NCBI GenBank assembly: GCA_016187935.1
Contig: JACPIU010000038.1
Location: 1-64,000 of the forward strand
Length of the DNA stretch: 64,000 nucleotides
Reading direction: 5' to 3'
DNA from: Bdellovibrio sp.
GTDB taxonomy: Bacteria > Bdellovibrionota > Bacteriovoracia > Bacteriovoracales > Bacteriovoracaceae
A program made the position numbers and the translations under genes. Shown here piece after piece: positions 291-17,704 of the stretch; the first letter of the stretch is position 1; every line of letters starts with the position of its first letter. The notes under the pieces are model-generated. The model saw only the letters and a list, made by a program, of their open reading frames with translations. It ran no database searches and was not told the DNA's origin.

Positions 291-307
291 AAATATTTGA
301 TCGTCTT

Positions 308-329: not shown

Positions 330-341
330 TGACTCACCTCT

Positions 342-646: not shown

Positions 647-655
647 GGAATTTTT

Positions 656-1003: not shown

Positions 1004-1080
1004 AATGCGATGAAAAAAGTGAAACAACCAATAAACATCTTTCACCTGAAAAAAATGGATGTTTGATTTTGGGGGAAATT

Positions 1081-1515
1081 ATGTACGGTATATTAATTTT
1101 TTTGCATCTAATTGGTGCCTCGATTTGGGTTGGAGGTCACCTCATCCTTGCCATTGGCATTTTGCCTAAGGCCCTAAAGGCAAATGATCCAAGTATCATT
1201 CAAGATTTTGAAGCGGTTTTTGAAAACATCGGAATTCCCGCCTTGATAACCCAGGTGATTACGGGCCTATCTCTCGCCTATCTGATGCTGGGTAATGACC
1301 TCATTGGCCTTACCTCAGGGCCACAGCGTACCGTGACACTGAAATTAGCAGGCCTTTTATTTACCCTCATTCTTGCACTACATGCGCGTCTTGGAATCAT
1401 CCCTCAATTGACCAAGGAAAATTTGCGCCTTCTGTCCTTGCATATTTATCTGGTCACATTTATGGCTATTGGCCTTATTTTTCTTGGCGTGAATTTTAGA
1501 CAAGCATGGTTTTAA
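1081..1515 (+). CDS. CopD-like four-helix membrane protein
   Basis: 144 residues, almost entirely hydrophobic, with about four membrane helices (3-24, 52-75, 86-106, 119-140). The start FLHLIGASIWVGGHLILA carries the H-x-x-G-x-x-x-W-x-G-G-H pattern of CopD/DUF2269-like integral membrane proteins, in which the histidines can bind heme or copper. ATG 1081 follows GGGGGAAATT and is preferred over a TTG 18 bp upstream. It is cargo of the integrative element. A role in copper or redox handling is a family-level guess. Confidence 0.55.
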   Translation: MYGILIFLHLIGASIWVGGHLILAIGILPKALKANDPSIIQDFEAVFENIGIPALITQVITGLSLAYLMLGNDLIGLTSGPQRTVTLKLAGLLFTLILALHARLGIIPQLTKENLRLLSLHIYLVTFMAIGLIFLGVNFRQAWF

Positions 1516-1629
1516 CGTACAAGCAATGTTGGGAAGCATCTTGAAGAAGGCGAATTTTGAATATTTTTAAGATTTGGATGAGTTTGTTGGAAGTTGAGAT
1601 GACCTATAACAATTAAGGACGAATTTTTT

Positions 1630-2148
1630 TCACTTTTCGGAACGTTTTTCATAAAGACGATAGAGAAAGCCAGGCGATAGCCCTTGGGTGGGATAGGCTT
1701 GTTCTTCCAATATGCTATATTCTGAAAAATCTACGGAGGGGAAAAAGGTATCGGCCACACCATCATAATCAACATGGCTGATATAAAGACGATGAGCCAA
1801 GGGGAGCATCATGGTGTAAATCTGGCCCCCGCCATACACAAACAACTCTTGCACATTATTATGTCGGGCATAGCTCATGGCATCCAGCGAATTGGCAAAT
1901 GCGTGAATGTTGGCGGCAGAATCTTGGGGGAAGAGCTTCGTCATTTTTTCTTTTTGACTCAAGACCAACATCTTGCGTCCGGGAAGAGGTCGACCGATGG
2001 AATGAAAAGTTTTTCTTCCCATCATCAAGTGATGTCCCATAGTCAGTTTCCTGAAGAGTTTTAAATCTTCGGGAATATGCCACAAAAGACGATTGTCCTT
2101 CCCAATTTGATTGTGTTTTCCAATGGCCGTAATGATTGAAAATAGCAT
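1630..2148 (-). CDS. folA: Dihydrofolate reductase
   Basis: 172 residues, the normal size for DHFR. It reduces dihydrofolate to tetrahydrofolate with NADPH in the cytosol. Family features: substrate-site segment LLWHIPEDLKLFRKLT with the catalytic acid at Asp28, nucleotide-binding GRKTFHSIGRPLPGR and YGGGQIY. ATG 2148 is preceded by AGGAG and lies 1 bp after the stop of the upstream channel gene, so the two are probably translationally coupled. Carriage of a DHFR on a mobile element is notable because extra copies can confer antifolate tolerance; nothing in the sequence proves this. Confidence 0.93.
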   Translation of the reverse strand: MLFSIITAIGKHNQIGKDNRLLWHIPEDLKLFRKLTMGHHLMMGRKTFHSIGRPLPGRKMLVLSQKEKMTKLFPQDSAANIHAFANSLDAMSYARHNNVQELFVYGGGQIYTMMLPLAHRLYISHVDYDGVADTFFPSVDFSEYSILEEQAYPTQGLSPGFLYRLYEKRSEK

Positions 2149-2149
2149 T

Positions 2150-2935
2150 TTATCTCCTAACAAAATTGCGCACAGGAGAGACCCACCAATAGGCTCCTCC
2201 CACGAAAACCAGACCACTGACAAGATTTCCAAGCGTCACGGGAATTAAATTCTGAAGAACGCCCATCCAACTTATTCCTTCGCCTGGAGTGGCAAAATTT
2301 GCCAGCGTGAGAAGAGTCATATTCGCCACACTATGTTCATAGCCCGCACCGATAAATCCAAAGAGGCACCAGAAAATCATGATCAATTTTCCAGATTCTG
2401 TTTTCATGCGATAGCAACACCAGACGCTTAAAACCACAAGCCAGTTACATAATATCCCGCGTAGAAAAAGTTTCCAAAATCCCAGTGCCATTTTTTTTTG
2501 GGCCATGGCCGCAAGAAATATTGTACTTGATTCATTTGAAAAAATACCAGCTTGGGCCACAATCCAAGCAAGCAAAACAGCGCCGATGAAATTTCCAAAG
2601 TAGTTGCAGATAAACAGTTTTAAAACAGAACTCCAGGTAATATTTCCTGTCATGGCACCGACAGGAAGTACCATCGTATTCCCTGTGAAAAGATCTGATC
2701 CGGCAAGAATAACCAGACTTAGGGCAATACCAAAACTCGCTCCCATAATAAGAGAGATAAAGGGGGAATGAGCGGCATAAAAAGGGGCCCCCAAAATATA
2801 AATCAAAACAATACCAAATCCCACATAGACGCCGGCCAAAGCGGCATGGATCATATAACCACTAAAGCAACTGAAAAAAAGCTTTTCCTTGGCCTTGGCC
2901 GATTCACCAATGGCATTAATAACGTCCTGATACAT
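2150..2935 (-). CDS. Formate/nitrite transporter (FNT) family channel
   Basis: 261 residues with about six membrane helices. FNT hallmarks are a GSDLFTGNTM loop and the matching GYEHSVANMTL half-helix, which form the selectivity filter of these pentameric anion channels. FNT proteins move formate, nitrite or hydrosulfide across the inner membrane. The gene is followed with a 1-bp gap by folA and preceded by a small membrane protein and a SLAC1-type channel. With the NarX/NarL-like regulators upstream on the same strand, nitrite is an attractive but unproven substrate. Confidence 0.88.
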   Translation of the reverse strand: MYQDVINAIGESAKAKEKLFFSCFSGYMIHAALAGVYVGFGIVLIYILGAPFYAAHSPFISLIMGASFGIALSLVILAGSDLFTGNTMVLPVGAMTGNITWSSVLKLFICNYFGNFIGAVLLAWIVAQAGIFSNESSTIFLAAMAQKKMALGFWKLFLRGILCNWLVVLSVWCCYRMKTESGKLIMIFWCLFGFIGAGYEHSVANMTLLTLANFATPGEGISWMGVLQNLIPVTLGNLVSGLVFVGGAYWWVSPVRNFVRR

Positions 2936-2974
2936 TTTTTTTTCCTGATTTGAGTTGAAGGAAATTTTCCCGAG

Positions 2975-3307
2975 TTAGACCATAGGGCCTTCCGGGTCGC
3001 TGTCCATGGCGCCTTTGAGATGGATAAATGAGCCAATCAACCACAATACTGTGCCTAGACCCATAGTTCCCAAGGTGGGAGTGAGCAACCATCCGGGGTT
3101 GTCATAAAGGACTCCTCCAATCTCCTGGTTTAGCGTGACATTAAAACAACCTACGCAATAGGCGATAACCCCCAAAATGGATACGACGAATCCGATAACG
3201 ACAAGCCGCCGGCCTAATCGCATGCGACGTTCGGCCTGGGCGTAGGCAAGTTTTTGTGCACCAAGTGCCACTTCTGAGTGCTGAAAAGTTTCAACTTTGA
3301 CGTCCAT
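2975..3307 (-). CDS. Small two-helix membrane protein of unknown function
   Basis: 110 residues: a basic N-terminal part (AERRMRLGRR) and two membrane helices at about 35-56 and 75-95. ATG 3307 has GGAGA upstream and lies 17 bp inside the 3' end of the SLAC1-like gene, so it is probably co-translated with it. I do not recognise the family. Its position between two anion-channel genes suggests an accessory subunit. Confidence 0.6.
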   Translation of the reverse strand: MDVKVETFQHSEVALGAQKLAYAQAERRMRLGRRLVVIGFVVSILGVIAYCVGCFNVTLNQEIGGVLYDNPGWLLTPTLGTMGLGTVLWLIGSFIHLKGAMDSDPEGPMV

Positions 3308-4439
3308 AAATGTCTCCTATGCCCTTAGTATTGGGGATGAGTTTTTCCTCGCGATTTCTGGCGTGTAAACGTTGGCATGCGAACAGAGGCGTATGCAGTA
3401 GCCGCCCGGCCAATCCAAAAAAGGCCAATAGCCATGCGGATGCCGCCGCAATCATGGCGAATTTTGCGATCCACATCAAAAATGGTGCCGAAAGTGCTTG
3501 CGACAATTGGTATGTACAAGTGGCATACATGCCGAACGGGAACACGAGACCCCAGTAGTGTGGGTCGTAAGATATTGGGATGCGCTTAATTCGATGGCGC
3601 CATATTCCAAGGATAACCAACATTGGGATCCACCAGGTTGCTGTCGCCCAAAACATAATGGTGAGTCCGAGAACAAACGGGTGGAGATGTCCAAGCAACT
3701 CCGAGTTTTTTATGGCCTTTGTAAGGAGTGCTCCAGCAAGAGAGGAAATAGCAACCGCTCCCATATTGATCCAGTAAGGGGGCATCAAATCGCGCGGTGA
3801 AAAGGTAAAAAACATGTAGCGATAAAAGATCAGAGCGATAATCCAGAGATAGAGCATTCCCCCGCACAGCCAGAAAGACATCAGTAAAAAGAGAGTCATG
3901 TCCCTGTTACCCAGCATGGTTGCACCCAGGCCGCAACCCAGAACGCAGACAGATTGAGTTCCTACCACTGCCAGTAACCATCCGCCGTTGATTCCTTCAC
4001 TCAGTGTCGGTTTTTCACTTCGAATGGTGAGTGCGGTGAAAATGGAATAAGTACATAGGAGCCACAGTAAAACGTTTATCCACCATAAGATCTCACCCAG
4101 AAATAGCAAGTTGTGAAGCACGACTAGCTGCGAGCCTACGATGCTCGTCGCCGCCACCGACGTGAAGAAACCATAAGCACGTTGGTGACTCATGCAATCT
4201 GCAAGCACATTTTTGGGGTACATCACGACCCTGGCCAAAAACAAGCTCCAAAGGATTGGAAAAACAATTATATTAATCCAGGAAAGCGTGAGACCAAGTT
4301 CCTTGAGGCCAAGGCGGTAGGCGACAATGGCAACAATTCCAGTGGCCATAGCCAATGCAAAATTGGACGGGAACATGTCCTCAAGTTGACTCTTGAGATA
4401 GTCTTCAATCTGTCGAAAATTTGGATGTCGATATCCCAT
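3291..4439 (-). CDS. SLAC1/TehA (TDT) family anion channel
   Basis: 382 residues with about ten hydrophobic segments. The N-terminal FPSNFALAMATGIVAI segment and repeated helix-pair layout match the tellurite-resistance/dicarboxylate transporter family, which includes TehA, yeast Mae1/Ssu1 and plant SLAC1. Members pass anions such as nitrate, chloride, sulfite or C4-dicarboxylates across the cytoplasmic membrane. It heads a run of four tightly packed genes ending in folA, just downstream of a NarL-type regulator on the same strand. Confidence 0.8.
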   Translation of the reverse strand: MGYRHPNFRQIEDYLKSQLEDMFPSNFALAMATGIVAIVAYRLGLKELGLTLSWINIIVFPILWSLFLARVVMYPKNVLADCMSHQRAYGFFTSVAATSIVGSQLVVLHNLLFLGEILWWINVLLWLLCTYSIFTALTIRSEKPTLSEGINGGWLLAVVGTQSVCVLGCGLGATMLGNRDMTLFLLMSFWLCGGMLYLWIIALIFYRYMFFTFSPRDLMPPYWINMGAVAISSLAGALLTKAIKNSELLGHLHPFVLGLTIMFWATATWWIPMLVILGIWRHRIKRIPISYDPHYWGLVFPFGMYATCTYQLSQALSAPFLMWIAKFAMIAAASAWLLAFFGLAGRLLHTPLFACQRLHARNREEKLIPNTKGIGDIYGRQS

Positions 4440-4542
4440 GAGATATAGACTAATGAATTATGGCCTTATTCGATATCGGCGACAGTCTGAAATACTTGTA
4501 GGATCATGCGAAATGGCGCGTCAGTTTTTGTCCTACATGGAG

Positions 4543-5178
4543 CTACGTGGTCAATTTTGATTCCAGCGCATATCGCATCAGCTGCGCATTGGAGTTCAGA
4601 CCCATCTTTTCCAGAATGCGATTTCGGTAGGTACTGATCGTCTTTACGCTTAGTCTGAGCTGGGTTGCAATCTCTGTCACGGAATGCGCCTTGGCCAACA
4701 AAAGGAAAACTTCATATTCTCGCGATGAGAGCCGCTCATGAGGAGCTTGGGAGCCGAAATCGGCAAGAGCGACATGTTCGGCGATCTGCTGTGTGGCGGT
4801 CTCACAAATATAACGTTTCCCCTGCGTGACGCTAGAGATGGCCTGCAATAATTCCTCTGGTGCCCGGTCCTTGGTGACATAGCCGGAAACGCCGACACGC
4901 AAGGCCCTAACGACAAATTGCCGTTCGCTATACATACTGAGGATAATGATGCGCAAATCGGGGATGATCTGCAAAAGTTCCGGCACAAGGTCGAGACCGT
5001 TGCGAGTTCCCAGAGCAATGTCAAGAATCAGGACGGTCCAATTTGCCTCTCGCATTTTTGCGAGTAACTCAACATCAGAGGCGGCTTCCCCGATGGGCAC
5101 ATCAGGAAATGCCTCCATGATAATGCGTTTTAATCCAGATCGAACAATGGCATGATCATCGGCCAACAGAATTCGCAT
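4543..5178 (-). CDS. NarL/FixJ-type response regulator
   Basis: 211 residues. Receiver domain 1-120 with acidic pocket Asp7-Asp8, phospho-acceptor Asp53 and Lys103. A LuxR-type helix-turn-helix sits at about 145-205 (LSSREYEVFLLLA ... SVKTISTYRNRILEKM). ATG 5178 with GGAGG seven bases upstream is preferred over upstream starts. The start lies 23 bp inside the histidine-kinase gene, so kinase and regulator are co-translated. The likely role is transcriptional control of nearby genes, plausibly the channel operon. Confidence 0.92.
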   Translation of the reverse strand: MRILLADDHAIVRSGLKRIIMEAFPDVPIGEAASDVELLAKMREANWTVLILDIALGTRNGLDLVPELLQIIPDLRIIILSMYSERQFVVRALRVGVSGYVTKDRAPEELLQAISSVTQGKRYICETATQQIAEHVALADFGSQAPHERLSSREYEVFLLLAKAHSVTEIATQLRLSVKTISTYRNRILEKMGLNSNAQLMRYALESKLTT

Positions 5179-6970
5179 GGGTGACCTCCGATTTTTGCAG
5201 TAATTGAGCAGTGACTTGCACTGTTGTTCCTTGGTTTTTTGCTTCATAAATCGACAAATGTCCGCCGATCAGCGCCACGCGCTCGCGCATGCCGATGATC
5301 CCAAGCGACTGGGGATTTTTGAGCGAGTCGGGCATAATCCCTTTTCCATTGTCCTGCACAGTCAGCGTGATATTTTCTCCATTCATGACCAGCTTGATTT
5401 CTACATTGCTTGCCTGTGCATGTCGAATAACATTGGTCAGTGCCTCCTGGGCAATTCGAAACAAGGTTATTGAGACTCTCTCATTAATGTCTGATGGGAT
5501 CTCTTCCGCATCAATCTGGATTGCAAGCTCGCTACGCTCCTCAAGACTACTGGCAAGCCATTCTAAGGCCGGAACAAGTCCCAGTTTGTCTAGGACGCTT
5601 GGGCGAAGCTCTGAGGAGATATGTTGCACCAGACTGATCATGTTACTGATTTGTGTACTCATGGCATCAATACTTTCATGCATGGCAATTGAGCAGGCCG
5701 TGGTTGCATTATCTTTCGGACAATGCGATCGCAGATGCGATATATCGATCTTTAAGGACGTGAGCGCCTGTCCTATTTCATCGTGGAGTTCACGCGAGAT
5801 GCGGGCCGCTTCTTCCTCGCGAGAGGTTTGTAGTTTGCTTGCAAGCGCCCGCAGTTGTGCTTGCACTTGGACTGCCTCATTATGTCGGGCCACAAGAGAG
5901 TCCGCCATGGTATTGAAGGCGCTGGCCAAAGAGGCGATCTCATTGTGTCCGTGAAAGAATAAAGCACGCGCCGACAAGTCACCGGCGCCGAAACGTTTTA
6001 CCGCATACGCCAGCGATCGCAGGGCGCGCAAAATTCCCAGCTCCGCCGCCAAGAAGACGACAATGATTGTAAATAAAGTCAGGGTTCCTAGAATTGCAAG
6101 AGTTCGATAAAATACGGCTGCCGTTTGTGCAAAGATGCTGGCATAGGGAAGACTGACCGCCACGTATAAATTTGGAGTTCCCTCAAATGGGAGGGCCACG
6201 AAATAGCGACGATCGGTGGTGCCCTCGATTTTTAAAGATTTTCCCCGTTTTGACCGCGAGATCTCATCGATGTTGGGAATTTTCAATCCCACCAGATTCG
6301 CCCCTTTTTCACTACGGTTAGAGTCATTATGGGCGAGAATCTGGCCGTTTTTATCCGTGATCAATAGAGAAGACATCCCGGGAAGGTCCGCCTGTCGCGC
6401 TATTTCGGAGAGCCATTCAAGGTCCAGCCCATTAAACAGCACTGCCCATACTTTTCCTTTGGCGTCTCGAATAGCATAGGCGTGATTGAGTGTGGGGCGA
6501 TTAAAGATCGGCGAGATGAGATATTCTCCAATCGCAATATCACGTGAATTCAATGCCGTCATAAACGCAGGATTATCTTTCCAGTTTCGATTACTCAATT
6601 GTGGATGGGCACTTATCCATACTTGACCATCGGGGGAAAGAACCCCCACATTGGCAAGCTGGGGGTGTCCGGCCAATAAAATCCGCAGAAAATTTGGGTC
6701 TGTGATAATGGGTGATTTTCTTCCATCCTGTTCCAACTTGGAGCCAAGCCATCGGAGCAGATTACTGGCTCCTTGAATCTGATGAGCGTGTTCGCGTCCG
6801 GCTAGGCGGGCCAAGTGTAAAGCGTCGAGCTCGGCCCGTACAAGCGCACTTGAACGCTCCCGTTCGGCCATAAAGAAAGTAAAAAGAAACGCTGGAAAAG
6901 TGGCCAGGCAGATGAGAAAAAGCAATCGGCTGCGAAGCGAAGCAAAATATGATTTCTGACTGTGTCTCAT
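5156..6970 (-). CDS. Membrane sensor histidine kinase, NarX/DegS-like (HisKA_3)
   Basis: 604 residues. Helix at 16-34, an extracytoplasmic double-Cache-like sensor (about 40-285), helix 288-312, HAMP linker 313-365, a HisKA_3 box ELHDEIGQALTSLKID with phospho-acceptor His396, and an HATPase_c domain with N-box QEALTNVIRHA and DNGKGI. This architecture senses an external small molecule and phosphorylates a NarL-type partner, here the overlapping regulator at 4543-5178. The Cache sensor differs from the classical nitrate P-box sensor of NarX, so the ligand is unknown. Confidence 0.92.
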   Translation of the reverse strand: MRHSQKSYFASLRSRLLFLICLATFPAFLFTFFMAERERSSALVRAELDALHLARLAGREHAHQIQGASNLLRWLGSKLEQDGRKSPIITDPNFLRILLAGHPQLANVGVLSPDGQVWISAHPQLSNRNWKDNPAFMTALNSRDIAIGEYLISPIFNRPTLNHAYAIRDAKGKVWAVLFNGLDLEWLSEIARQADLPGMSSLLITDKNGQILAHNDSNRSEKGANLVGLKIPNIDEISRSKRGKSLKIEGTTDRRYFVALPFEGTPNLYVAVSLPYASIFAQTAAVFYRTLAILGTLTLFTIIVVFLAAELGILRALRSLAYAVKRFGAGDLSARALFFHGHNEIASLASAFNTMADSLVARHNEAVQVQAQLRALASKLQTSREEEAARISRELHDEIGQALTSLKIDISHLRSHCPKDNATTACSIAMHESIDAMSTQISNMISLVQHISSELRPSVLDKLGLVPALEWLASSLEERSELAIQIDAEEIPSDINERVSITLFRIAQEALTNVIRHAQASNVEIKLVMNGENITLTVQDNGKGIMPDSLKNPQSLGIIGMRERVALIGGHLSIYEAKNQGTTVQVTAQLLQKSEVTHANSVGR

Positions 6971-7050
6971 TGCGCTTATTGCACCTATTCCGGATCAGTG
7001 ATAACTAAAACTGGTCGCTCTGCATTTCCCTCGAATTGTCGGACATTATT

Positions 7051-7330
7051 TTACGCGGCACAACGGTCTCGTTCAGCATACTCACGTGGACTCAAATAGC
7101 CAAGTGAGGAATGCAATCTTGTTGAATTGTGCCAAGTTCCGATGTATCTAAAAATTTTCTGCCTCGCCAATTCCTCGATTTGAATTTTTTTTCATCATGT
7201 TTATTTTTCAATGTGTGGAAAAACTCTCGCCAAAGACATTGTCGTGGCCGTCGCCCTTTCTTGACATCGATTGGACTATACCCAGTGCTTCTAGACGATC
7301 CTGCAAATCATTGTCCTAGTAGGTTTCGAG
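7051..7330 (-). pseudogene. IS3-family transposase remnant (C-terminal part)
   Basis: Reading the minus strand gives ALGIVQSMSRKGDGHDNVFGESF, a decayed form of the IS3-type integrase core (QSMSRKGNCWDNAVAESFF). It then breaks into stops and resumes in another frame as WHNSTRLHSSLGYLSPREYAE before a stop at 7051. No intact transposase or clear terminal repeats were seen. The fragment abuts a truncated HTH gene at about 7340. Confidence 0.75.
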
Positions 7331-7339
7331 AGATGCTGG

Positions 7340-7444
7340 TACCAACATATTGAGAGTGGAACCTATAGTGTAAGCCTGCCGACGCTGGAACGTATCGCTC
7401 GGGCATTTGAAGTAGATATCTCCGATTTTTTTAGCAAGAATTAA
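7340..7444 (+). pseudogene. 3' fragment of an XRE-family regulator
   Basis: The plus strand reads YQHIESGTYSVSLPTLERIARA then FEVDISDFFSKN-stop, the second half of a Cro/CI-type HTH domain and its C-terminus. The 5' part is missing and replaced by IS3 debris, so the regulator was probably destroyed by that insertion or a following deletion. Confidence 0.65.
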
Positions 7445-7550
7445 TCGAGTATATTGACCAGAAAAATTTTATGCAACATTTAACGGCCCATGCTGTTTCA
7501 TGGATTAGACTACGCAAATTCAACATGATGGATAATTCGGCTTCCCTATT

Positions 7551-7616
7551 TAAATTGTATCACACTTTAATATAATGTGATACAATTTAAATTGTCTCAC
7601 AACAATATAAATTGTG
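7551..7616. promoter_or_regulatory. Promoter and palindromic operator array of the AbiE pair
   Basis: TAAATTGTATCACA (7551-7564) and its exact reverse complement (7576-7589) flank 11 bp that carry most of a TATAAT -10 box (7571-7576). A third, direct copy with one mismatch lies at 7588-7601 and a partial copy TAAATTGTG at 7608-7616. AbiEi antitoxins repress their own operon through inverted repeats overlapping the promoter, and this array fits that role. Confidence 0.75.
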
Positions 7617-7625
7617 CTGTCATCT

Positions 7626-8231
7626 ATGAGTACTCAAGCGCGAGAAAAAAAACTAAAGCAAATCAAAAAAATGGCCTTCACCGCCAAGGAAGCAATTTCT
7701 GAGGCGGGCTTTTCTTATTACGAATTAAACCTACTTGTGAAGAACGGTTATCTTGTGAAGGAAGGACGAGGTACTTTTATTAAAAAAAACCATGCCAATA
7801 GTGAATCTGACCACTACGCCGTGGCCCTCACTCAATTAGGAGAACCTTCCGTCCTTTGCTTGTGGTCGGCCCTTGTTTTTCATGACCTTACCGAGGAGGC
7901 ACCATCGGATATTTGGGCCTATGTTCCCTATGAAAAAACTACCAGACTTAAAATAAAAGCTGTGCGAAAGAGAAATCCGCACTGGGACATTGGCATTGAA
8001 ACGATCAATGGCATCAGAGTGACTAATATTGAACGCACACTGATTGACATTCTCCTTGATCGCAAACATTTTCCCGAAGTACAGGCCTACAAAATTGTGA
8101 TGGATGCCATTCGAGTGAAAAAAACGGCCTTTCAGAAGCTTTTTGCAATGGCAAAAAAATTGAAAGCTGATAAAAGATTAAAACGTGACTTGCTCATCCT
8201 AGAGGAAACTCGTGAGGCCCCCCATGTTTAA
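7626..8231 (+). CDS. abiEi: AbiEi-like antitoxin and autorepressor
   Basis: 201 residues from ATG 7626 (a GTG lies 12 bp upstream). An N-terminal winged-helix region (about 14-55: FTAKEAISEAGFSYYELNLLVKNG) resembles the AbiEi_4-type antitoxin HTH. The C-terminal part carries the conserved GIRVTNIERTLIDIL motif of the family. AbiE is a type IV toxin-antitoxin system in which this protein represses transcription and relieves toxicity without binding the toxin. It overlaps the toxin gene by 8 bp (ATGTTTAA) and follows the operator array at 7551-7616. Confidence 0.85.
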   Translation: MSTQAREKKLKQIKKMAFTAKEAISEAGFSYYELNLLVKNGYLVKEGRGTFIKKNHANSESDHYAVALTQLGEPSVLCLWSALVFHDLTEEAPSDIWAYVPYEKTTRLKIKAVRKRNPHWDIGIETINGIRVTNIERTLIDILLDRKHFPEVQAYKIVMDAIRVKKTAFQKLFAMAKKLKADKRLKRDLLILEETREAPHV

Positions 8232-9075
8232 TGCAGACCAATGGAATGCCAAAATCAAGAAAGTCTCCCAGGACTTGGGTGTTAAAGATGTCAACCGGGT
8301 TCGTGGCATCGTGGTGCTTGAGCGCATCGTGGCCCGCTTGGTTACCAATCCCTTTCTCAAAGAACATCTTATCTTCGGTGGCGGCCTTGTTTTATTCAAA
8401 GAATTGGACACGAATCGCTACACCAGGGATGCTGATGCCATTGTCTCAGGCATCGACCAGGTTAATTTGGAAAAAGAAGTCATCAAGGCGCTTGATACCA
8501 ACTTGGAGGATGGCCTCTGGTTTGGCAATGTTGCCACCGAAGGCATTGAAACGGAAAGCGGTTATGGTGGAATTCGTTATAAAATTTTGTACAAATTAGG
8601 GACACCAGCTCCAACCCCTAAAGAGAAGAAACAATTGCGACGCATACACTTGGACATTTCTATTGGTGTTGACCTTGAAGACGTTGCCAAGACCGCCGTC
8701 ACAAAATCTATTTTGCCTTCTATGTCGCCTATTGAGTGGAAGATTTACCCGCCAGCGTTTATCGCATCCGAGAAAATCCATTGTCTCCTTGACCGGGGCG
8801 ACCGCAACTCAAGGGGAAAAGATATTTATGACCTGCCTTTCATTTTTAAAGAAACCAGCGACCAAGAACTCCTTCTGGCCATAGAACGAACATTTGAGAA
8901 GAGAAAATTTCAAGTGGACTCACTCTATAAGGCCGCGAAAGCAATTGATACGGAATACATCAAAAAGAGTTATGACCTGATTTTGGCAGATACAAAAGTC
9001 CATGCGTTTGATGAGAGCTGGAAAATTATCTTGGACAAGCTTCAATCTCTTGAACGGATAAAAATAAAAAAATAA
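8224..9075 (+). CDS. abiEii: AbiEii-like nucleotidyltransferase toxin
   Basis: 283 residues from ATG 8224, which overlaps the antitoxin stop; a GTG at 8212 is an alternative. Nucleotidyltransferase motif FGGGLVLFKE (about 51-60) followed by the acidic pair RDADA (about 68-72), then LDISIGVD and EKIHCLLDRGDRNSRGKDIYDL, all typical of AbiEii/DUF1814. Characterised relatives transfer nucleotides to tRNA acceptor ends and stop growth during phage infection. The motifs are intact, so the system is probably functional. Confidence 0.88.
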   Translation: MFNADQWNAKIKKVSQDLGVKDVNRVRGIVVLERIVARLVTNPFLKEHLIFGGGLVLFKELDTNRYTRDADAIVSGIDQVNLEKEVIKALDTNLEDGLWFGNVATEGIETESGYGGIRYKILYKLGTPAPTPKEKKQLRRIHLDISIGVDLEDVAKTAVTKSILPSMSPIEWKIYPPAFIASEKIHCLLDRGDRNSRGKDIYDLPFIFKETSDQELLLAIERTFEKRKFQVDSLYKAAKAIDTEYIKKSYDLILADTKVHAFDESWKIILDKLQSLERIKIKK

Positions 9076-9224
9076 TCTTACATTTTCACTTTCAATAATT
9101 TCCAACAAGTGGATTCTTCTCTTACATCACAGTAAGCATTTTTAAGTTTTTTACTCTGTATTTTTCTGCTTTTTTTTGAGACTATCCGCAGTTCGACTTT
9201 TTCTGAAAGTGTTCGCCAAAACAC

Positions 9225-9248
9225 TTTGAAGGAGGACTTATGAGCTAA
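9225..9248 (+). promoter_or_regulatory. Strong ribosome-binding site with a two-codon ORF
   Basis: GAAGGAGG is followed four bases later by ATG AGC TAA (9240-9248) in the 278-bp gap between abiEii and the next gene. The Shine-Dalgarno sequence is stronger than that of most genes here, yet the ORF is only Met-Ser. It may be the remnant of a deleted gene or a leader element; nothing else coding is visible in 9076-9353. Confidence 0.35.
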
Positions 9249-9353
9249 CCATAGCAAAAAACTTGATTCTCTTCAAGTAAAAATTCAAATCAGTTCGTTT
9301 TTACAAAAACCTGAGGAAGTGCCCTTGGGCCTTTCTTATTTTGTGGAGGTCAA

Positions 9354-9809
9354 ATGAATTCTGACTGGCAAAGACGTCTGTCCGCCATCGTCCTGGGATT
9401 TGGTGGAATCATGATTCTCTATTTGCTTTTTAAATTTACAGGAGGTGGGCTTCCCCATCCCTCACCGCTCATGCGCCCATGGAACATTTTAGATTTTATG
9501 GTGATGAAAGTTCTGTACTTTCTCCTCTATGCCGTCCCAGTTGCGGGGGTGTTATTTTTAATTCATCTCTACATCATGGAGATGATTGATAGGAGGTATG
9601 ACAAAACAGAGAGAGAGCTGCGCAAGCTTAAAGAAAATTTTGAGTGGGAAATTCAACGAATTGACAAGCGTAATGGGGAGACATCCAAAAAGCTGGAACA
9701 AGAAATCGGTTCCCTTTTTAACGAAATTAAAATCATCAAAGACGACAAGGAGGCGAAAGCAAGACCAGTTTCTTTAATTGAAGAGCAAGCCTTAAAAAAT
9801 TTTCTGTGA
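9354..9809 (+). CDS. Membrane protein with a cytoplasmic coiled coil, unknown function
   Basis: 151 residues with two membrane helices (about 9-26 and 48-73) and a charged coiled coil (about 80-135, KTERELRKLKENFEWEIQRI then repeated E/K heptads). ATG 9354 follows GGAGGTCAA. The next gene starts within 8 bp, so the pair is probably one transcript. I do not recognise the family. Its place in the mobilisation/integration half of the element suggests a role in element maintenance or transfer. Confidence 0.65.
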   Translation: MNSDWQRRLSAIVLGFGGIMILYLLFKFTGGGLPHPSPLMRPWNILDFMVMKVLYFLLYAVPVAGVLFLIHLYIMEMIDRRYDKTERELRKLKENFEWEIQRIDKRNGETSKKLEQEIGSLFNEIKIIKDDKEAKARPVSLIEEQALKNFL

Positions 9810-9816
9810 GGTGAAT

Positions 9817-10614
9817 ATGACTATAACCCAGAGGGACAGAAAGCTTTTTTCCCATTTATCAAATTATGGCATGCTGACAACCAAGCATGTTAACGAAATT
9901 ATTTTCGGTGGTATTGCCATCACGACGGTTCTTAGACGACTTAGAATCTTAGAAGAGGAAAAATATTTAAAGAGGCTGGTGGGCCTTGAATCACAGGACA
10001 TCCTGTGGACAATGACGGACAAGGCTGCACTTTTAGGAGAAGGAGAACAATTTAAACGCTACTGGAACAAAAATTTATTGGAGCATGACTTCAAATTACT
10101 AAACCTTAGGCTCGCATTAGAAAAACAAGGCATCGCCAAATCTTGGATACCTGAGCACAAAATAAGATACCTTGTATTCAAAAAGCATGGCATCGAGGCC
10201 GCGCAAAAAATGCTTGTGCCCGACGGTTTAATGGTTACTGAAGTCCAAACACACAAAGTCTCTGTGGCGGTTGAATTGGAGTTAAGTCTTAAAAATAAAG
10301 ACCGGCTTGAAAAGAATTTTTCGCGCTACCTAGAGAAAAAAGACTTGGCCTACATCTGGTATATTTGCCAAGGCCCTTTGATTTTAAATTGTGTCCACAA
10401 AGCATGGAACGCCGTCAAAGGATATAAGTCCACCATCAAGCTTCACTCATCACTTCTTACGGAAGTCATGCAAAACCCCAAAGCGCCGTGGATAGAAGCT
10501 GCTCACTCCCCTGCTCATGGGGTGAGCACCAAAACGATAGAAATCAAATCCGCGCCCCCTTGGTCAAGTGGAGAATATCCCAAGACTTTTCCCACATCAA
10601 ACGCGCCCCCTTGA
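9817..10614 (+). CDS. Replication-relaxation-type protein
   Basis: About 265 residues from ATG 9817 (GAGGTGA just upstream; GTG 9811 is an alternative). The N-terminal winged helix (about 4-60, TQRDRKLFSHLSNYGMLTTKHV) and central segment PDGLMVTE with AVELELSLKNKDRLEKNFSRY resemble Replic_Relax proteins encoded by plasmids and integrative elements, where they act in replication or mobilisation. The last 25 or so residues are proline-rich and correspond to DNA already inside the inverted-repeat array, so the tail may be dictated by DNA structure more than by protein function. Confidence 0.6.
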   Translation: MTITQRDRKLFSHLSNYGMLTTKHVNEIIFGGIAITTVLRRLRILEEEKYLKRLVGLESQDILWTMTDKAALLGEGEQFKRYWNKNLLEHDFKLLNLRLALEKQGIAKSWIPEHKIRYLVFKKHGIEAAQKMLVPDGLMVTEVQTHKVSVAVELELSLKNKDRLEKNFSRYLEKKDLAYIWYICQGPLILNCVHKAWNAVKGYKSTIKLHSSLLTEVMQNPKAPWIEAAHSPAHGVSTKTIEIKSAPPWSSGEYPKTFPTSNAPP

Positions 10615-10733
10615 TGTTGCCTTAAGGACTGGCCACCCCCTCCCAACATGAGGTGAGAGGAGGTGGCCAGTCCTTAAAGCAACGGGGGCGGTAGGATTAG
10701 GGAAAAGGGATAATAACAAAGACCAAGGGGGCG
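10501..10733. repeat. Nested inverted-repeat array, candidate oriT or replication origin
   Basis: At least four inverted repeats are stacked here: GCTCAC/GGTGAGC-type arms at 10501-10511 and 10519-10527; outer 13-bp arms CGCCCCCTTGGTC (10553-10565) and GACCAAGGGGGCG (10721-10733); ACATCAA/TTGATGT (10594-10600, 10611-10617); and 16-bp arms TTAAGGACTGGCCACC (10622-10637) and its complement (10662-10677). The last is extended by CGCCCCC (10604-10610) with GGGGGCG (10684-10690). The array joins the replication-relaxation gene to the excisionase-like gene. A transfer or replication origin, or a strong regulatory structure, are the likely readings. Confidence 0.7.
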
Positions 10734-10736
10734 GAG

Positions 10737-11024
10737 TTGGAGAAAGAATTATTGGGTGCAATGATTCCAATGATGGTTTTTAAGAAAGAAATTTATGATT
10801 TCGTAGAGTCTCTTATAAAAGAGAAATTTCAATCAGAGAAAAAGAAAGAGCTATTAACAGTTAAAGAAGCTGCCAATTTTTTGAATGTGAAAGTCTCATG
10901 GGTTAGACAAGCAGTGTTTAAGCGCGAGATTAATCACGTCAAAGTCGGGGCTTTAGTGCGTTTTCGCGAGGAGGACTTGCAAAGCTATATTCACAAAAAT
11001 CTTAAACCCGTTGGGACAAGCTGA
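10737..11024 (+). CDS. Excisionase-like HTH_17 DNA-binding protein
   Basis: 95 residues if TTG 10737 is the start; ATG 10761 would give 87. The C-terminal half LLTVKEAANFLNVKVSWVRQAVFKREINHVKVGALVRFREEDLQSYI is a MerR-like winged HTH of the HTH_17/excisionase class, with the usual V-R-F-R-x-x-D-L-x-x-Y ending. Such proteins bend DNA at attachment sites to drive excision, or act as small regulators. It lies between the hairpin array and the integrase, the expected place for xis. The start codon is uncertain because no ribosome site is well placed. Confidence 0.75.
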   Translation: MEKELLGAMIPMMVFKKEIYDFVESLIKEKFQSEKKKELLTVKEAANFLNVKVSWVRQAVFKREINHVKVGALVRFREEDLQSYIHKNLKPVGTS

Positions 11025-11053
11025 CATGGATTAATGGCCATTTCTATGCTACG

Positions 11054-11126
11054 GTCTTCGCCAGGATTGGAAGACAATCCCGCTCTTTTACAACTAAAGA
11101 TGGGAACAGACGACACTGGCGAAGAC
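11054..11126. repeat. Inverted repeat upstream of the integrase gene
   Basis: GTCTTCGCCAG (11054-11064) and its exact complement CTGGCGAAGAC (11116-11126), separated by 51 bp, lie between the excisionase-like gene and the integrase start at 11149. They could be an operator pair or a long RNA stem controlling integrase expression. Confidence 0.5.
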
Positions 11127-11148
11127 TCTTTTACCAAAGGAGTTTTCA

Positions 11149-12261
11149 ATGCAAGTGATAAGAACAAAGAAGGGAACCTTTTACCGGGAAAAAATTTACA
11201 TAAGCGGAAAGGCCACCCACTCTCCGCGTTTTTTACGAAAGACCGACGCCGTGGGGTGGAAGGCGCGCATGGAAAGTGAAAAGGGAAAATTTCGCTCCTC
11301 CGGCGTCCTGCCAAAAGTTTTTCAGGAACCAAGCAAAACGACCTTAAATGATGAGGCCCAAGCTTGGCTTGAAACGCGAGTCAAGCTTCAGCTCTCAAGA
11401 AGAACCTATGAGCATTACAGTACCACCCTTAAGCGCCATATCTTGCCGAGCTTTGGACATTTAAAGCTACAAGAAATCCAAATAAGGCATGGTCACTGGC
11501 TCATTAAGGAACTGCACGAAAATGGCCACAACGCCAAGGGTATCAATTTAATTGTAGGCGTCTTCAAGCGGGTTTTGATTGAGGCCACACGAGAAAATCG
11601 GTTAGAGAAAAATCCTTTTCAGTACCTAAGGGAAATGAAGGAGACCCCTCGCGCCGATGTTTACATGACCTCAGAGCAAATTGAGCGGGTGCTTGAAGTG
11701 ACTCAAGGCCACTACTTCCATTCGCTTTTTCTTCTAGCTGTGAATACTGGAATGCGAAGAGGAGAAATTGCGGGGATGTGCTGGGATAAGGTGAATTTTC
11801 ACACAGGGCTCATAGAAATTGCCCGGCTTCGAGATAGAAACGGTCTAGGCGACAGAACAAAGACGTTTAAGAGCAGACGCTTTATTCCCATGAACGCCGT
11901 GGCCAGAAATCACCTCCTCACACTTAAAGAAAAAACCAAAAGTGATTTGGTGGTGACAGATATAGATGCCGAGGCCTTTGACGTAAACCACGTTTACCGC
12001 GACCTCTCGCGATTTTTAAAAGAGGCCGAGATAAAAGAGCATTACCGCTTCCACGATTTGCGCCATACGTTCGCGAGCCACTTCATGATGAACGGCGGAA
12101 ATATCTACGACCTTCAAAAAATACTTGGGCATTCAAGTCTAGAGATGACTCAGCGGTATGCGCACCTGGCACCTGAGCATTTAGTAGAGGCCTCGAATGT
12201 GGTTAGTTTTGGCGGAAAAGTAGTGGAGAGAAAATTGGCGTTACAAAATTTAGCGCCATAG
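11149..12261 (+). CDS. int: Tyrosine recombinase (phage-type integrase)
   Basis: 370 residues. N-terminal arm-binding region (1-60), core-binding SAM-like domain (about 63-160), catalytic domain (170-345). The catalytic set is complete: Arg203 (TGMRRGE), Lys in TKTFKSRR, His302-xx-Arg305 (HDLRHTFAS), His328 (LGHSS) and nucleophile Tyr337 (QRYAHLAP). ATG 11149 has AAAGGAG upstream. It integrates and excises the element at the tRNA-Leu site, whose att copy begins 55 bp downstream. The last codons overlap the TAGCGCCA repeat, so the C-terminal tail is partly shaped by that DNA site. Confidence 0.95.
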   Translation: MQVIRTKKGTFYREKIYISGKATHSPRFLRKTDAVGWKARMESEKGKFRSSGVLPKVFQEPSKTTLNDEAQAWLETRVKLQLSRRTYEHYSTTLKRHILPSFGHLKLQEIQIRHGHWLIKELHENGHNAKGINLIVGVFKRVLIEATRENRLEKNPFQYLREMKETPRADVYMTSEQIERVLEVTQGHYFHSLFLLAVNTGMRRGEIAGMCWDKVNFHTGLIEIARLRDRNGLGDRTKTFKSRRFIPMNAVARNHLLTLKEKTKSDLVVTDIDAEAFDVNHVYRDLSRFLKEAEIKEHYRFHDLRHTFASHFMMNGGNIYDLQKILGHSSLEMTQRYAHLAPEHLVEASNVVSFGGKVVERKLALQNLAP

Positions 12262-12269
12262 TAGCGCCA
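12251..12269. repeat. Paired TAGCGCCA repeat, candidate arm site (right)
   Basis: TAGCGCCA lies at 12251-12258 and 12262-12269, 11 bp apart, matching the pair at 272-290. The first copy overlaps the last two codons of the integrase gene and the second begins at its stop codon. Confidence 0.55.
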
Positions 12270-12315
12270 AGCTTTTCTTGAGGGTTTTAAATTGCTGTTT
12301 TTATTGAGGATTTGA

Positions 12316-12336
12316 GAGATGGTGCCCAGGACTGGA
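12316..12336. repeat. Right attachment site inside tRNA-Leu 3' end
   Basis: The partner of the repeat at 121-141. It covers the T-arm/acceptor end of the tRNA including the encoded CCA and a few bases beyond, so integration leaves the tRNA functional. Confidence 0.85.
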
Positions 12337-12404
12337 CTTGAACCAGCATGCCTCTCGGCGCCACCCCCTCAAGATGGTGTGTCTACCAATTTCACCACCT
12401 GGGC
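12320..12404 (-). tRNA. tRNA-Leu (anticodon GAG)
   Basis: The minus strand folds as a class II tRNA of 85 nt including encoded CCA. The acceptor stem GCCCAGG pairs with CCTGGGC; the D-arm contains AATTGGTAGAC; the anticodon stem CCATC/GGTGG encloses TTGAGGG with anticodon GAG; a variable arm follows; the T-arm contains GGTTCAAGTCC. The sequence parallels E. coli tRNA-Leu(GAG) throughout. It is the insertion target of the integrative element. Confidence 0.93.
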
Positions 12405-13068: not shown

Positions 13069-13293
13069 ATGGACTTAGGTGCTCAAATGAAAGGTCCAAA
13101 TTGCCATCAGTGCAAGCACTTTTTTATTACTTTTGACGTGGCCGTCCCCTACGGGTGTAGAGCATTTCGTTTTAAGGCCAAAGAAATTCCTTCTCGCGCA
13201 GTAAAGCAAAATTCTGGGAACGAGTGCCAGGCCTTCGCGGAAAAAGAACATCGCAAGACCCCAGTGAAAGAAAACCCCGAAGAGAAAACTTAA
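13069..13293 (+). CDS. Small Cys-rich conserved protein (CxxCKH ... PYGCRAF)
   Basis: 74 residues from ATG 13069 (TTG 13042 and ATG 13087 are alternatives). The pattern CHQCKHFFITFDVAVPYGCRAFRF then SGNECQAF matches a widespread family of tiny zinc-ribbon-like proteins, sometimes annotated loosely as uracil-DNA glycosylase-related. Four cysteines (CxxC, GC, EC) could bind one zinc. The cellular role is unknown. It ends tail-to-tail with mnmA, the stop codons overlapping by about 3 bp. Confidence 0.6.
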   Translation: MDLGAQMKGPNCHQCKHFFITFDVAVPYGCRAFRFKAKEIPSRAVKQNSGNECQAFAEKEHRKTPVKENPEEKT

Positions 13294-14423
13294 ATCTCAG
13301 AAAAAAGTGAAGGCCCCACCCCATGAATAAAACCACCGCCGAGACACTTGGCGCCTTGGTAAAAAACCACCGCCTGGCGAGGCGTAATGGCCCGCTGGGG
13401 AATGCGAAAATCGGCCCGCACCTCGCCATCGGGCAAAGGGGTGATGATGCAATCCTGGTCAGACTGGCGATAGCGAATTTTGGCCTGAACGGACATGGGA
13501 CCTTCTAATTTAAAATCCGGAGATACCCAACTTAGTTCATTACAGGTGAGCCAACGAGCGAAGAGAGCGGGGTGATTCTCCCCTCTTTCAACAAAAACAG
13601 TATTGGAATCGCGATCTTTGGCCACCACAAACCACGCCTCCCCTGGCCCACCGAGACCAAGACCTTTACGCTGGCCCAATGTATAAAGATGCACACCCTG
13701 ATGTATCCCAACCTTCTCGCCATTTAAATGTTTAAACGGTCCCGGAACAGGTCGAAGATAATTGGATAAAAACTGACGGAAGGGTCGCTCCCCAATAAAG
13801 CAAATACCTGTACTATCCTTTTTATGCATCACTGAAAGTTGTGCCTCCTCCGCGAGCTGACGCACAACTTTTTTTGCCAAATGGCCTACAGGGAAGATCA
13901 CCCGTTTTAAGATTTCTTCTTGCATAGTACATAAAAAGTAGCTCTGATCTTTCCCGGGATCAGTGCCTTTTAGCATATGATGACGACCATGCTCATCAAT
14001 GGCGTGCTGGGCATAGTGGCCGGTGGCAAAATAGTCGGCCCCAAGGTTAAGAGCGTGTTGGTAGAATACCTTAAACTTAATCTCACGATTGCATAGAATA
14101 TCGGGATTCGGAGTGTGTCCGGCCTGATATTCTTTCAAAAACCACTGGAACACCGATTCTTGATATTCTTTGATAAATTCCACCGGGAAGAAAGGAATAT
14201 CCAGTCGCCCACAAACTCGCGCCACATCCTCATAATCTTTTTCCGCCGGGCAAGGTCCCTGTGGTTCATCCCAATTTTTCATGAAAAGCCCAATGACCTC
14301 ATGGCCCATTTTTTTAAGGACGGCCGCAGCTACCGACGAATCTACCCCGCCGGACATGCCGACAACAATTTTCTTTATGCCCTCACGACTGGGATGAGGA
14401 ATATAATTGGAAATACTATTCAT
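13290..14423 (-). CDS. mnmA: tRNA-specific 2-thiouridylase MnmA
   Basis: 377 residues, the normal length. MnmA adenylates U34 of tRNAs for Glu, Gln and Lys and inserts sulfur. Motifs: PP-loop SGGVDSS (24-30), catalytic cysteines Cys111 (NPDILCNREIKF) and Cys208 (STGICFIGER), the TGHYAQH segment, and C-terminal barrel segments LYTLGQRKGLGLGG and RQAVVFYQGAKCLGGGFI. All active-site elements are intact, so this is the housekeeping copy, in contrast to the damaged paralogue at 15668-16957. Confidence 0.96.
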   Translation of the reverse strand: MNSISNYIPHPSREGIKKIVVGMSGGVDSSVAAAVLKKMGHEVIGLFMKNWDEPQGPCPAEKDYEDVARVCGRLDIPFFPVEFIKEYQESVFQWFLKEYQAGHTPNPDILCNREIKFKVFYQHALNLGADYFATGHYAQHAIDEHGRHHMLKGTDPGKDQSYFLCTMQEEILKRVIFPVGHLAKKVVRQLAEEAQLSVMHKKDSTGICFIGERPFRQFLSNYLRPVPGPFKHLNGEKVGIHQGVHLYTLGQRKGLGLGGPGEAWFVVAKDRDSNTVFVERGENHPALFARWLTCNELSWVSPDFKLEGPMSVQAKIRYRQSDQDCIITPLPDGEVRADFRIPQRAITPRQAVVFYQGAKCLGGGFIHGVGPSLFSEI

Positions 14424-14442: not shown

Positions 14443-15666
14443 TTATTTCACGATATCAAATGCCCAGGCCAGAACGCCGGTGGCGATAAATTGATAGCTT
14501 TTGTAGAGCGTTTGATAATTGAGCGTTTCGGCAAAGTCATCTGCCGTGTGATAATTAGGATTCATGTCTGATTCCATATTCTGAGTAAAGATCAAGGTGG
14601 GAGCATCCAAATCCCAATAGGCCGCACCGTTGCCTTGATTAAAATCATTGGCATTGATCTCAAATTGAATGCCGGAGACAGTCCGTTTTCCTGCTTCTTG
14701 AAACAAACGTGCCAATTTTTGGGCCTGAGCAGCTCCCGGAGCTTCTGGATCACGCAGATAGAGAGACATGTTACCGTATTTTTTCTCAATGTCTTGATCA
14801 CGAGAATCATGGCCCAACCTGATCAAATCAATGTGCCCAGCAAACTTTGCTGACTTGATGAGATCCTTGTTTTGTTTGGCCATGGCCACTGCCCCGAGAG
14901 AGGCCACTTGGCCATAATCGTAGAAGACAATCCTGACTGTTTTAGGCAGGGGAATTTGCGAGAGGAGTCTAACCAAACTGATTGCCACAGCGACCCCGCT
15001 ACCATTGTCATCAGCACCTTGAGTTTTCACCTTTTCTATAATTTTTAAACTTTTGGGATCATGGGCCATGGAATCGAAATGTGCTCCCAAGATCAGAACA
15101 CTCTCGGGATCAAGAGTTCCTTTTCGCTCCCAAACGACATTGGTACCAGGTACCTTGCTGAGAGTGTTTAAAAATTTTAAAGTGTCATCGGTAAAAGCCT
15201 TCCATCTGGTATAGGTGGGATGATTCGGTTTAAATTTTGCTGCAATCTCTCGCGCAAAATCATCCTGATACATTTTCCGGGCACGCGTCAAATCAGGAGT
15301 AAAAGCTTCCTGGGTAACCACACAACAATTGGTCTGTGAAGCTGGAATTGTGGCAGTAAAACCGGCCAGAATTTCACTGATCACCCCAGGGGTTTTGGCA
15401 TGCCCGGGCTTTCCTACCAATCGACTCGGGTGGGTCTTTTCTAAAAAAAGCATCAGCGATTTTCTCACGTCATCCATTTTAAATTTCTCGATGAAAGGTA
15501 GGAGTGATAAATAACGAGAGGGCGGATTAAAAGGGACTTCACGTACAGTTTTGGTGGCACTTGAAGAACCCGTTCCGGATGAGTCGCCAAAGGCAGAAAG
15601 ACATGAAAAAAGAACTAAAGAAATGCTCAGAATCTTGATCCTATAAACTGCATTTAAATTAGTCAT
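14443..15666 (-). CDS. Exported M28-family metallopeptidase, divergent
   Basis: 407 residues from ATG 15666, which starts a signal peptide (YRIKILSISLVLFSCLSAFGD). M28 aminopeptidase features: GAHFDSMAHD with the first zinc ligands, GADDNGSGVA with the bridging Asp, and YHTADD near the end with the last His. The usual Glu-Glu pair (catalytic base plus zinc ligand, in FxGxEExGLLGS) is replaced in FYDYGQVASLGA, so catalysis is doubtful. The start is 1 bp after the stop of the mnmA-like gene, so the two are translationally linked. Likely periplasmic or outer-membrane associated. Confidence 0.75.
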   Translation of the reverse strand: MTNLNAVYRIKILSISLVLFSCLSAFGDSSGTGSSSATKTVREVPFNPPSRYLSLLPFIEKFKMDDVRKSLMLFLEKTHPSRLVGKPGHAKTPGVISEILAGFTATIPASQTNCCVVTQEAFTPDLTRARKMYQDDFAREIAAKFKPNHPTYTRWKAFTDDTLKFLNTLSKVPGTNVVWERKGTLDPESVLILGAHFDSMAHDPKSLKIIEKVKTQGADDNGSGVAVAISLVRLLSQIPLPKTVRIVFYDYGQVASLGAVAMAKQNKDLIKSAKFAGHIDLIRLGHDSRDQDIEKKYGNMSLYLRDPEAPGAAQAQKLARLFQEAGKRTVSGIQFEINANDFNQGNGAAYWDLDAPTLIFTQNMESDMNPNYHTADDFAETLNYQTLYKSYQFIATGVLAWAFDIVK

Positions 15667-15667
15667 A

Positions 15668-16957
15668 TTAAAATCCAAGTTTTTTATTTCTCTCCAATAG
15701 AGCAGAAATTTGGGCCGCTTCTTTGTCATGTTCACGCTTAAAAAATACTGCATTTAATGCCTGAATATTGGCCACGACACCGCAAGCAAGGAGTTTCGCA
15801 CCAGGGTCTGCATTCTCATAAAGCCCAACGCACGTGCCTGGGGCCAGAAATCCTTGTCTCTCACTTGCTAATTCGATGGAGGCCATTTGATTATTTTTAA
15901 AGTGAATCGTGCAAGGCCAACCCTCCTTACTTTGGGCCAAGCGGGCGACGGCAGAACACGGTTTAGTGGTATTGCAGAGTGGAGTCGTTATAAGGGCGTA
16001 CAGGACAAAAGATCGAAAACCGAGATTCTTTGGATCGGCGACAAAAACGACACCATTACTCATGTTTTTCTGTACCACAACTTGATCTGCATCATCGGAG
16101 GTCACATTTTCTATGCTGGTTACTTGGGGACGGGTTACTCCCAACATAAAATAATGCAGGCCTTGGTGATCACATAAGAGTTGTTCGTCTTCATAACGGA
16201 GAATCTGCCCGGCCTTTCTAAGACTAATTGGCGTTGTCCTTTCAATAAACTCTGGCAAGTGAGGTGAAGACATAAAACAGACATGATCATCACTGGAAAC
16301 TTGCACATCATTACTCATCGATTGGGCAATTTTGATAACTTAATCTCGGCGCATTTCTGCTAAGGGAAGAAGAAGTCGCGACAACTGATTCTGATTTAAC
16401 TGTGCCAGCTTTAAGGATTGATCTATAGTGGGGTCGTGTGACGCTCCAATAGAATAAACCTTATTATTTTTTATCAATTGCACTCTGGCGTAATGCCCGG
16501 TTGCCACCATTTGGGCCTTTAACTTGTTGGCCTTTTGCTCCAACAGATCAATGAGTAATTGATGGCAGTACATGCATGGATAGATTTTTTCGCCTGAGAT
16601 ACCTGCCGAGATCACGCGATCAAGCACAAGACTTTTAAACTCACTTAAAGCATTGACAGCATAAAAAGGAATCTCGAGATGCTCGGCCTGTGCTCGGGCC
16701 TTTTCTAAATTCACCACATGACAGTCTGTGAAAAAGGCCGGGATGTAACTCAAATCATCAATCTGCCCCTCCTCACTGATGCTGGTGGATTCTTGAATTG
16801 TCATAGCACGCCGGCGGGAATAAAGAGTATCGTGCACATCCACCATCTGAATGCATACGCCGATCACATGTAGGCCTTGTTTTTTTAACAAATAAGCGGC
16901 AACAAAAGAATCCATCTTCCCGCTCATGCCTACGACAACAGTATTAATGGCCGACAT
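15668..16957 (-). pseudogene. Second MnmA-like gene interrupted by one in-frame TAA
   Basis: Two open segments are halves of one MnmA-like protein. Segment 16340-16957 (205 aa) carries the PP-loop domain, with a degenerate loop SGKMDSF in place of SGGVDSS, Cys131 (PCMYCHQLL) and ATGHYAR. Segment 15668-16318 carries the second cysteine (DHVCFMSS), LHYFMLGV and the C-terminal barrel (APGTCVGLYENADPGAKLLACGVV). The TAA at 16340-16342 is followed in the same frame by seven sense codons and then ATG 16318, so one base change separates the halves. The second half has no ribosome site of its own. It may be decayed, a sequence error, or a stop read through. Confidence 0.8.
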
Positions 16958-17122
16958 AATAATTTCTCTCTTTGCACTATTATACCTGAATCTGTAAAAC
17001 TTGGCGGAGCAATATCTGCCGTATTTTTTTACTCGGACATTTATTTTTGCCTCAAACTCAGGTTGTTCAAATAAATTTTCGAAGATGTTTATGTGAATGA
17101 TTTGTACAAAAAGCTTTATCTC

Positions 17123-17704
17123 ATGGACTCCCATTTGAGAGTGGGCCATCTGCAATTAAACGATTTTTTTCGTATCGTGGAATGTCTAATTGGGTACAAA
17201 CCTAAACGTTTTGCATTTTGCGGCCATCGACCCGAACTGCACAAAAATCTCACTCTGAGTGAGAATATTTTCTTGGAAGCACCACACGGAACCATCAAGG
17301 ACAGATCAAGACAAAACTATACCCAGCAAAATTTCGGTGGGAATATCTATCTCTATCAATTGTTTGAACGACTGTCCTATCCTGAGGCCCTCGGCCATGA
17401 GGTCAGTTGTAGCGCAAAGAAATTAGTGGCAATCATACGAACGTTGCTCCGTCCTGATCCCCATATTTTTTTAGTCGCCCCCCAACATGGGATGGATCGC
17501 ACCTGCATGGAACTGTTGGCAAAATCGCTCATCCTGGAACAGACACTCAATCAGAAAATGATTCTGGTGGCCGACTGGTCCCTCTCTGAATGGCCTTTAC
17601 TAACCAAAGTTCCGGTTCTGCAAATCAAAAAAACTGCACCCGATAATCAAATGGTGATCTCAATCGCGAACCCTCAAGAGCAAGACTTGAAATTGGCAAG
17701 TTAG
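17123..17704 (+). CDS. ABC-ATPase-like protein lacking the Walker A half
   Basis: 193 residues from ATG 17123 (ATG 17093 gives 203). The order of motifs recalls the second half of an ABC ATPase: KNLTLSENIF (Q-loop/LTxxEN region), SCSAKKLVAIIRTLLRPDPHIFLVAPQHGMD (signature helix, Walker B strand and D-loop position), then MILVADWSLSEWP in place of the H-loop strand. No Walker A is present, LSGGQ reads SCSAKK, and the Walker B acidic pair is absent (FLVAPQHGMD). It resembles the degenerate Mla-type ATPase at 22943-23722. Assignment is tentative; a non-catalytic scaffold role is inferred. Confidence 0.45.
   Translation: MDSHLRVGHLQLNDFFRIVECLIGYKPKRFAFCGHRPELHKNLTLSENIFLEAPHGTIKDRSRQNYTQQNFGGNIYLYQLFERLSYPEALGHEVSCSAKKLVAIIRTLLRPDPHIFLVAPQHGMDRTCMELLAKSLILEQTLNQKMILVADWSLSEWPLLTKVPVLQIKKTAPDNQMVISIANPQEQDLKLAS

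Follow-up and report, generated by a model that had tools for sequence, protein, structure and literature searches.

Two classes of MnmA are distinguished by their motifs, the D-type (C-DxxC-C) and the C-type (CC-CxxC-C), a division that PMC11784392 cites from Shigi. According to the same article, variants of E. coli MnmA in Asp99, Cys102 and Cys199 lose thiolation. In the U34 thiolase Ctu1/Ctu2, CTU2 is described as the scaffold (PMC11661634). A search of open-access texts for an MnmA paralogue or pseudoenzyme found nothing on point.

The window analyzed here is a stretch of 64,000 nucleotides from a Bdellovibrio sp. It contains a complete D-type mnmA and, on the same strand, a second MnmA-like frame which is interrupted by a stop codon. 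The parts of this locus, in the direction of reading, are as follows.

16965..16973, minus strand: purine-rich ribosome-binding region of the paralogue, AAAGAGAGA
15668..16957, minus strand: whole interrupted frame, eroded C-type MnmA paralogue, 430 codons including stops; unbroken orthologue in the congener G002 (L004/L034)
16343..16957, minus strand: proximal half, HUP/ATP-pyrophosphatase domain with the PP-loop SGKMDS and CxxC, ending before the last conserved cysteine
16340..16342, minus strand: in-frame TAA, aligned with E. coli MnmA residue 177, before Cys199
15671..16318, minus strand: distal half of 216 aa, comprising the end of the HUP domain with its cysteine (HVCF), PRC-barrel-like and beta-barrel parts, without ribosome-binding site
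14443..15666, minus strand: M28 peptidase gene between paralogue and mnmA, its ATG just past the paralogue stop
13290..14423, minus strand: intact D-type mnmA (SGGVDS, PDILC, TGICF), 429.5 bits compared to an NF001138 cut-off of 284

Read on the minus strand, the paralogue starts with an ATG at 16957-16955 and runs for 205 codons to the TAA at 16342-16340, which is followed by seven sense codons (16339-16319), a further ATG at 16318, and a stretch of 216 codons that ends with the TAA at 15670-15668. A previous sequence-only reading of this DNA had described two halves in the same frame, split by nothing more than the TAA and seven sense codons, and the re-read coordinates agree with it apart from the minor point that the TAA is counted in its proximal range (16340-16957). 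Its further statements that both halves are MnmA-like, that the second cysteine is retained and that the distal half lacks a ribosome site are correct as well. The proximal half belongs to the HUP domain family (PF03054, 107.3 bits with a cut-off of 20.6), the distal half matches NF001138 with E=8e-11 and carries the cysteine in HVCFM, and the two halves match MnmA profiles in order. The best Shine-Dalgarno duplex at the distal ATG has an energy of +1.5 kcal/mol compared to -4.9 kcal/mol at the true start of the paralogue. Since the TAA interrupts the catalytic domain ahead of its second catalytic cysteine (Cys199), neither half represents a natural domain. The column of the TAA is occupied by Glu in 70 and by Asp in seven of the other 79 aligned paralogues.

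The intact mnmA starts at 14423, at a distance of about 1.25 kb, close to the 1.2 kb given before. The gap between the paralogue and the M28 gene is a base or two, that between the M28 gene and mnmA about 20 nt, and these short gaps suggest that the three genes likely form one operon. The arrangement is a general one in the order: a D-type mnmA lies downstream of the paralogue on the same strand in all 60 loci with both genes in the stretch (the script gave 56, omitting four overlapping frames). The M28 peptidase gene is present in 49 of 62 loci, and in nine loci the paralogue abuts mnmA, the open frames being -43 to 71 bp apart. Divergently upstream of the paralogue we observed a C5 cytosine DNA methylase (PF00145, 17778-18941), which has a similar position in 32 of the 62 loci, and a divergent frame for a 203-aa protein without Pfam match (17093-17704), found in 20 of the 62.

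The other end of the window has a different character. Positions 1-12300 are largely non-syntenic with the congener and probably represent an integrated element; the non-syntenic part ends at a tRNA-Leu(gag) gene (12320-12404), beside which a phage-type integrase (11149-12261) and an HTH_17 protein (10737-11024) are encoded. Another integrase occupies the same place in the congener G001 (L035:3104-4249). Within the element, two overlapping genes (7614-9075) resemble, by eye, an antitoxin-toxin pair of the AbiEi/AbiEii type.

To follow the paralogue through the order we built a search profile (A1) from 26 intact copies and scored the gene as present at 285 bits or more. It was found in 106 of the 129 genomes searched; the order consists of one family, and the family and order searches gave the same 129 genomes. 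The orthologue of the congener G002 lies at the same place, is one uninterrupted frame of 428 aa and shares 76% amino-acid identity with the window copy, which confirms that an MnmA paralogue is split here by the TAA alone. The second congener, G001, was left out of this comparison, as the contig in question breaks off within the M28 gene. A comparison with sister strains had been suggested; in the present comparison across the order, all other 105 copies are uninterrupted and the window copy alone is broken, a TAA flagged in G027 being the natural C-terminal stop. The profile search did not find the paralogue in a few well-assembled genomes, e.g. G033, G105 and G107 of one genus. The gene is therefore dispensable, and its loss is tolerated.

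Motifs were counted in 80 distinct paralogues. An ATP loop of the form [ST]GGxDS occurs in 15 and is absent in 65 of them, the strict form SGGxDS being found in eight. The SGGxDS of MnmA is missing both in the window (SGKMDS) and in G002 (SGKVDS). The sequence-only reading had listed SGKMDS together with the break; the altered motif is there, but it is not a companion lesion. As the loop is eroded in 65 of the 80 copies, and alike in G002, its alteration is old, shared and separate from the break. All four conserved cysteines are kept in 45 of the 80 paralogues, none in 30, and five are mixed; the window copy has the CxxC and C cysteines of the C-type. In 75 of the 80 copies these cysteines are either all present or all absent, but the independent changes are too few to be tested for significance, and we therefore rejected their joint loss as a proof that a metal site exists. 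The D-type mnmA downstream has SGGVDS/PDxxCN/TGICF intact in 60 of 60 cases. In the phylum's other families, the first-sampled MnmA proteins are without exception of the C-type (22/22) with intact SGGVDS/CCS/PCxxCN/ICF.

Read through the stop, the window paralogue scores 154.3 bits and stays under the curated MnmA cut-off of 236.95 (TIGR00420 / NF001138), compared to 396.7 bits for the neighboring mnmA. In the phylogenetic tree the paralogues group with C-type MnmA, and the mnmA of the order groups with the D-type and E. coli (support 100/100); the branches within the paralogue clade are long. By its place in this tree, the paralogue is a descendant of a C-type MnmA that lives beside the D-type enzyme. 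In 76 of the 80 paralogues (L034, L067-L086, L107-L146) the C-terminus is an acidic tail with F, L or Y as its last residue, and seven of 60 D-type MnmA proteins end in F or L.

Pairwise omega values of the paralogue lie between 0.048 and 0.082 in eight pairs, including pairs free of the cysteines. The paralogue is under purifying selection and is a kept gene. A stray decaying duplicate is ruled out by the order-wide conservation together with omega values of 0.05-0.08, and to regard the locus as a stray broken duplicate would be too narrow a view: an eroded C-type MnmA, conserved throughout the order and apparently in an operon with mnmA, poses a larger question.

Between the window and G002, omega amounts to 0.055 for the part preceding the TAA and to 0.099 for the part following it (0.037 for mnmA, 0.088 for the M28 gene); these values are approximate, as dS is about 1.8 and synonymous sites are near saturation. 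The divergence after the TAA is 2.24 times that before it, within the range of 0.88-2.64 observed for intact pairs. Of two marks of a pseudogene, an interrupted frame is thus present, with one internal TAA, and relaxed selection past the lesion is not seen in either measure. Approximately 38 syntenic genes from the region of 12.3 to 64 kb were compared with G002, and the paralogue is the only one interrupted in the window; the remaining stop flags of this comparison are, by eye, antisense or spurious frames. A recoding of TAA was ruled out, since no other gene of the window has an internal TAA relative to its G002 orthologue and the paralogue itself ends in TAA. Without excess decay past the TAA and without another broken gene, the stop is a very recent event or else an erroneous base. 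One must keep in mind that the absence of decay is expected from a recent mutation and from an error alike.

From these comparisons we consider it probable, as the most likely reading, that the TAA is a very recent and real loss-of-function lesion in a conserved, eroded paralogue. An error of sequencing or assembly, with the paralogue of the organism being as intact as in its relatives, would account for the lack of excess amino-acid divergence past the TAA and for a gene that is unbroken in every relative carrying it, and the sequence comes from a draft assembly of 48 contigs. We nevertheless hold such an error to be rather unlikely, because the approximately 38 compared genes are otherwise uninterrupted, so that errors appear to be rare here, and the paralogue has been lost elsewhere in the order, so that its loss is tolerated. 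Very improbable is a paralogue that still functions, be it by low-level read-through of the TAA, by re-initiation at the ATG at 16318, or by two half-proteins that assemble. The purifying selection visible in both halves and a start codon only 21 nt past the TAA would suit this idea; it is opposed by the missing ribosome site of the distal half, by a break within the catalytic domain and off any domain border, and by the finding that a split version occurs in no relative, while the absence of internal TAA codons from all other genes of the window speaks against general recoding. The sequence-only reading had named a fresh nonsense mutation, a base error or read-through as causes. This was the right list of candidates, of which the recent event is supported by the divergence and read-through is unsupported.

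Eroded copies are not confined to the order. Several genomes of the families f8, f15 and f25 likewise combine an intact D-type MnmA with an eroded C-type copy, such as the one with SGGSKS/NPCLRCQ in G167 or that with SGKLDS/RPCVWCH in G156. In G259 an intact C-type protein occurs together with an eroded copy, and in G209 and G242 both types are intact.

L180-L186, L191, L206, L208, L209, L211: second eroded C-type set, mostly from genomes that also encode an intact D-type MnmA

Twelve of these eroded copies form a clade of their own (99/96), which is nested within the intact C-type proteins. A single origin of all eroded C-type copies was tried and rejected, as the tree forced to it fails the AU test with p 0.004, with the caveat of long branches. 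Judged from the trees, a conserved eroded MnmA has arisen at least twice in the phylum. The copies of f8, f15 and f25 lie off the contigs of the D-type gene, where both could be located, so that linkage is seen in the order of the window only.

As to a potential role of the paralogue, the D-type MnmA may have taken over U34 thiolation, and the displaced C-type protein, having lost catalysis, could have been retained to assist or regulate MnmA, for instance as a scaffold or for the docking of the tRNA or of the sulfur donor. By analogy, we tentatively propose that the paralogue could be to MnmA what Ctu2/Ncs2 is to Ctu1/Ncs6, namely a non-catalytic partner. The TAA would then have hit a gene that is kept by the rest of the order and that apparently shares a transcript with the working D-type mnmA. 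The window organism would just have lost this helper, as the proximal fragment breaks off within the catalytic domain and a start signal is missing from the distal half. Taken as a whole, the picture of an order in which a catalytically dead C-type MnmA is maintained to serve the D-type MnmA as a dedicated non-catalytic subunit or regulator, with a separate eroded copy elsewhere in the phylum and a loss just now in the window, is possible and is offered with reserve.

The paralogue might instead have an unrelated nucleotide- or RNA-binding job and owe its position before mnmA to history. Such a job is in line with an M28 peptidase gene that intervenes in 49 of the 62 loci and with the eroded C-type copies of f8, f15 and f25, which were found on contigs other than that of the D-type gene wherever both were located. 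We regard it as possible and only slightly less likely than the partner role; it is opposed by the linkage, which holds in 60 of 60 loci throughout the order, and by the finding that the paralogue can directly abut mnmA where the M28 gene is missing, as in the nine loci mentioned above. After the partner and the unrelated role, a residual or altered enzyme activity of the four-cysteine copies is the remaining possibility. A structure model calculated from three sequences was too poor to be used (mean pLDDT 53.5) and is silent on any complex.

By similarity alone the paralogue would be named a second MnmA. Most copies lack residues of the ATP loop or the cysteines needed by the known thiolation chemistry and are yet under selection beside a working enzyme. 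If the protein is a partner, it would represent an unrecognized helper subunit of bacterial U34 thiolation in this phylum, and if the stop is real, the window organism would provide a natural knock-out of the helper. The coexistence of D-type and C-type proteins forms a natural series, from an intact C-type alone over both intact and C-type eroded to C-type lost, along which one can trace what becomes of a tRNA enzyme after its displacement.

Compared to the described systems, the paralogue shares with C-type MnmA the fold family, the domain order and the grouping in the tree, and the window copy keeps the CxxC, the later cysteine and one cysteine of the CC pair. It differs from C-type MnmA in the eroded PP-loop, in the cysteines that are entirely gone from 30 of 80 copies, in a window copy scoring under the MnmA cut-off, and in the extra acidic tail. 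The D-type MnmA of E. coli and of the window (13290-14423) is homologous to the paralogue with about 25% identity, and the window's gene adjoins it on the same strand; unlike the paralogue, the D-type has SGGVDS, Asp99, Cys102 and Cys199 in 60 of 60 cases and stands on the opposite side of the tree root. The likeness to the eukaryotic Ctu1/Ctu2 (Ncs6/Ncs2) would be one of working principle, an active thiolase with a second subunit as scaffold, with gene linkage as the observed counterpart in the present case. Ctu1/Ctu2 belong to a different branch of the PP-loop ATPases, and the paralogue itself stands outside that family.
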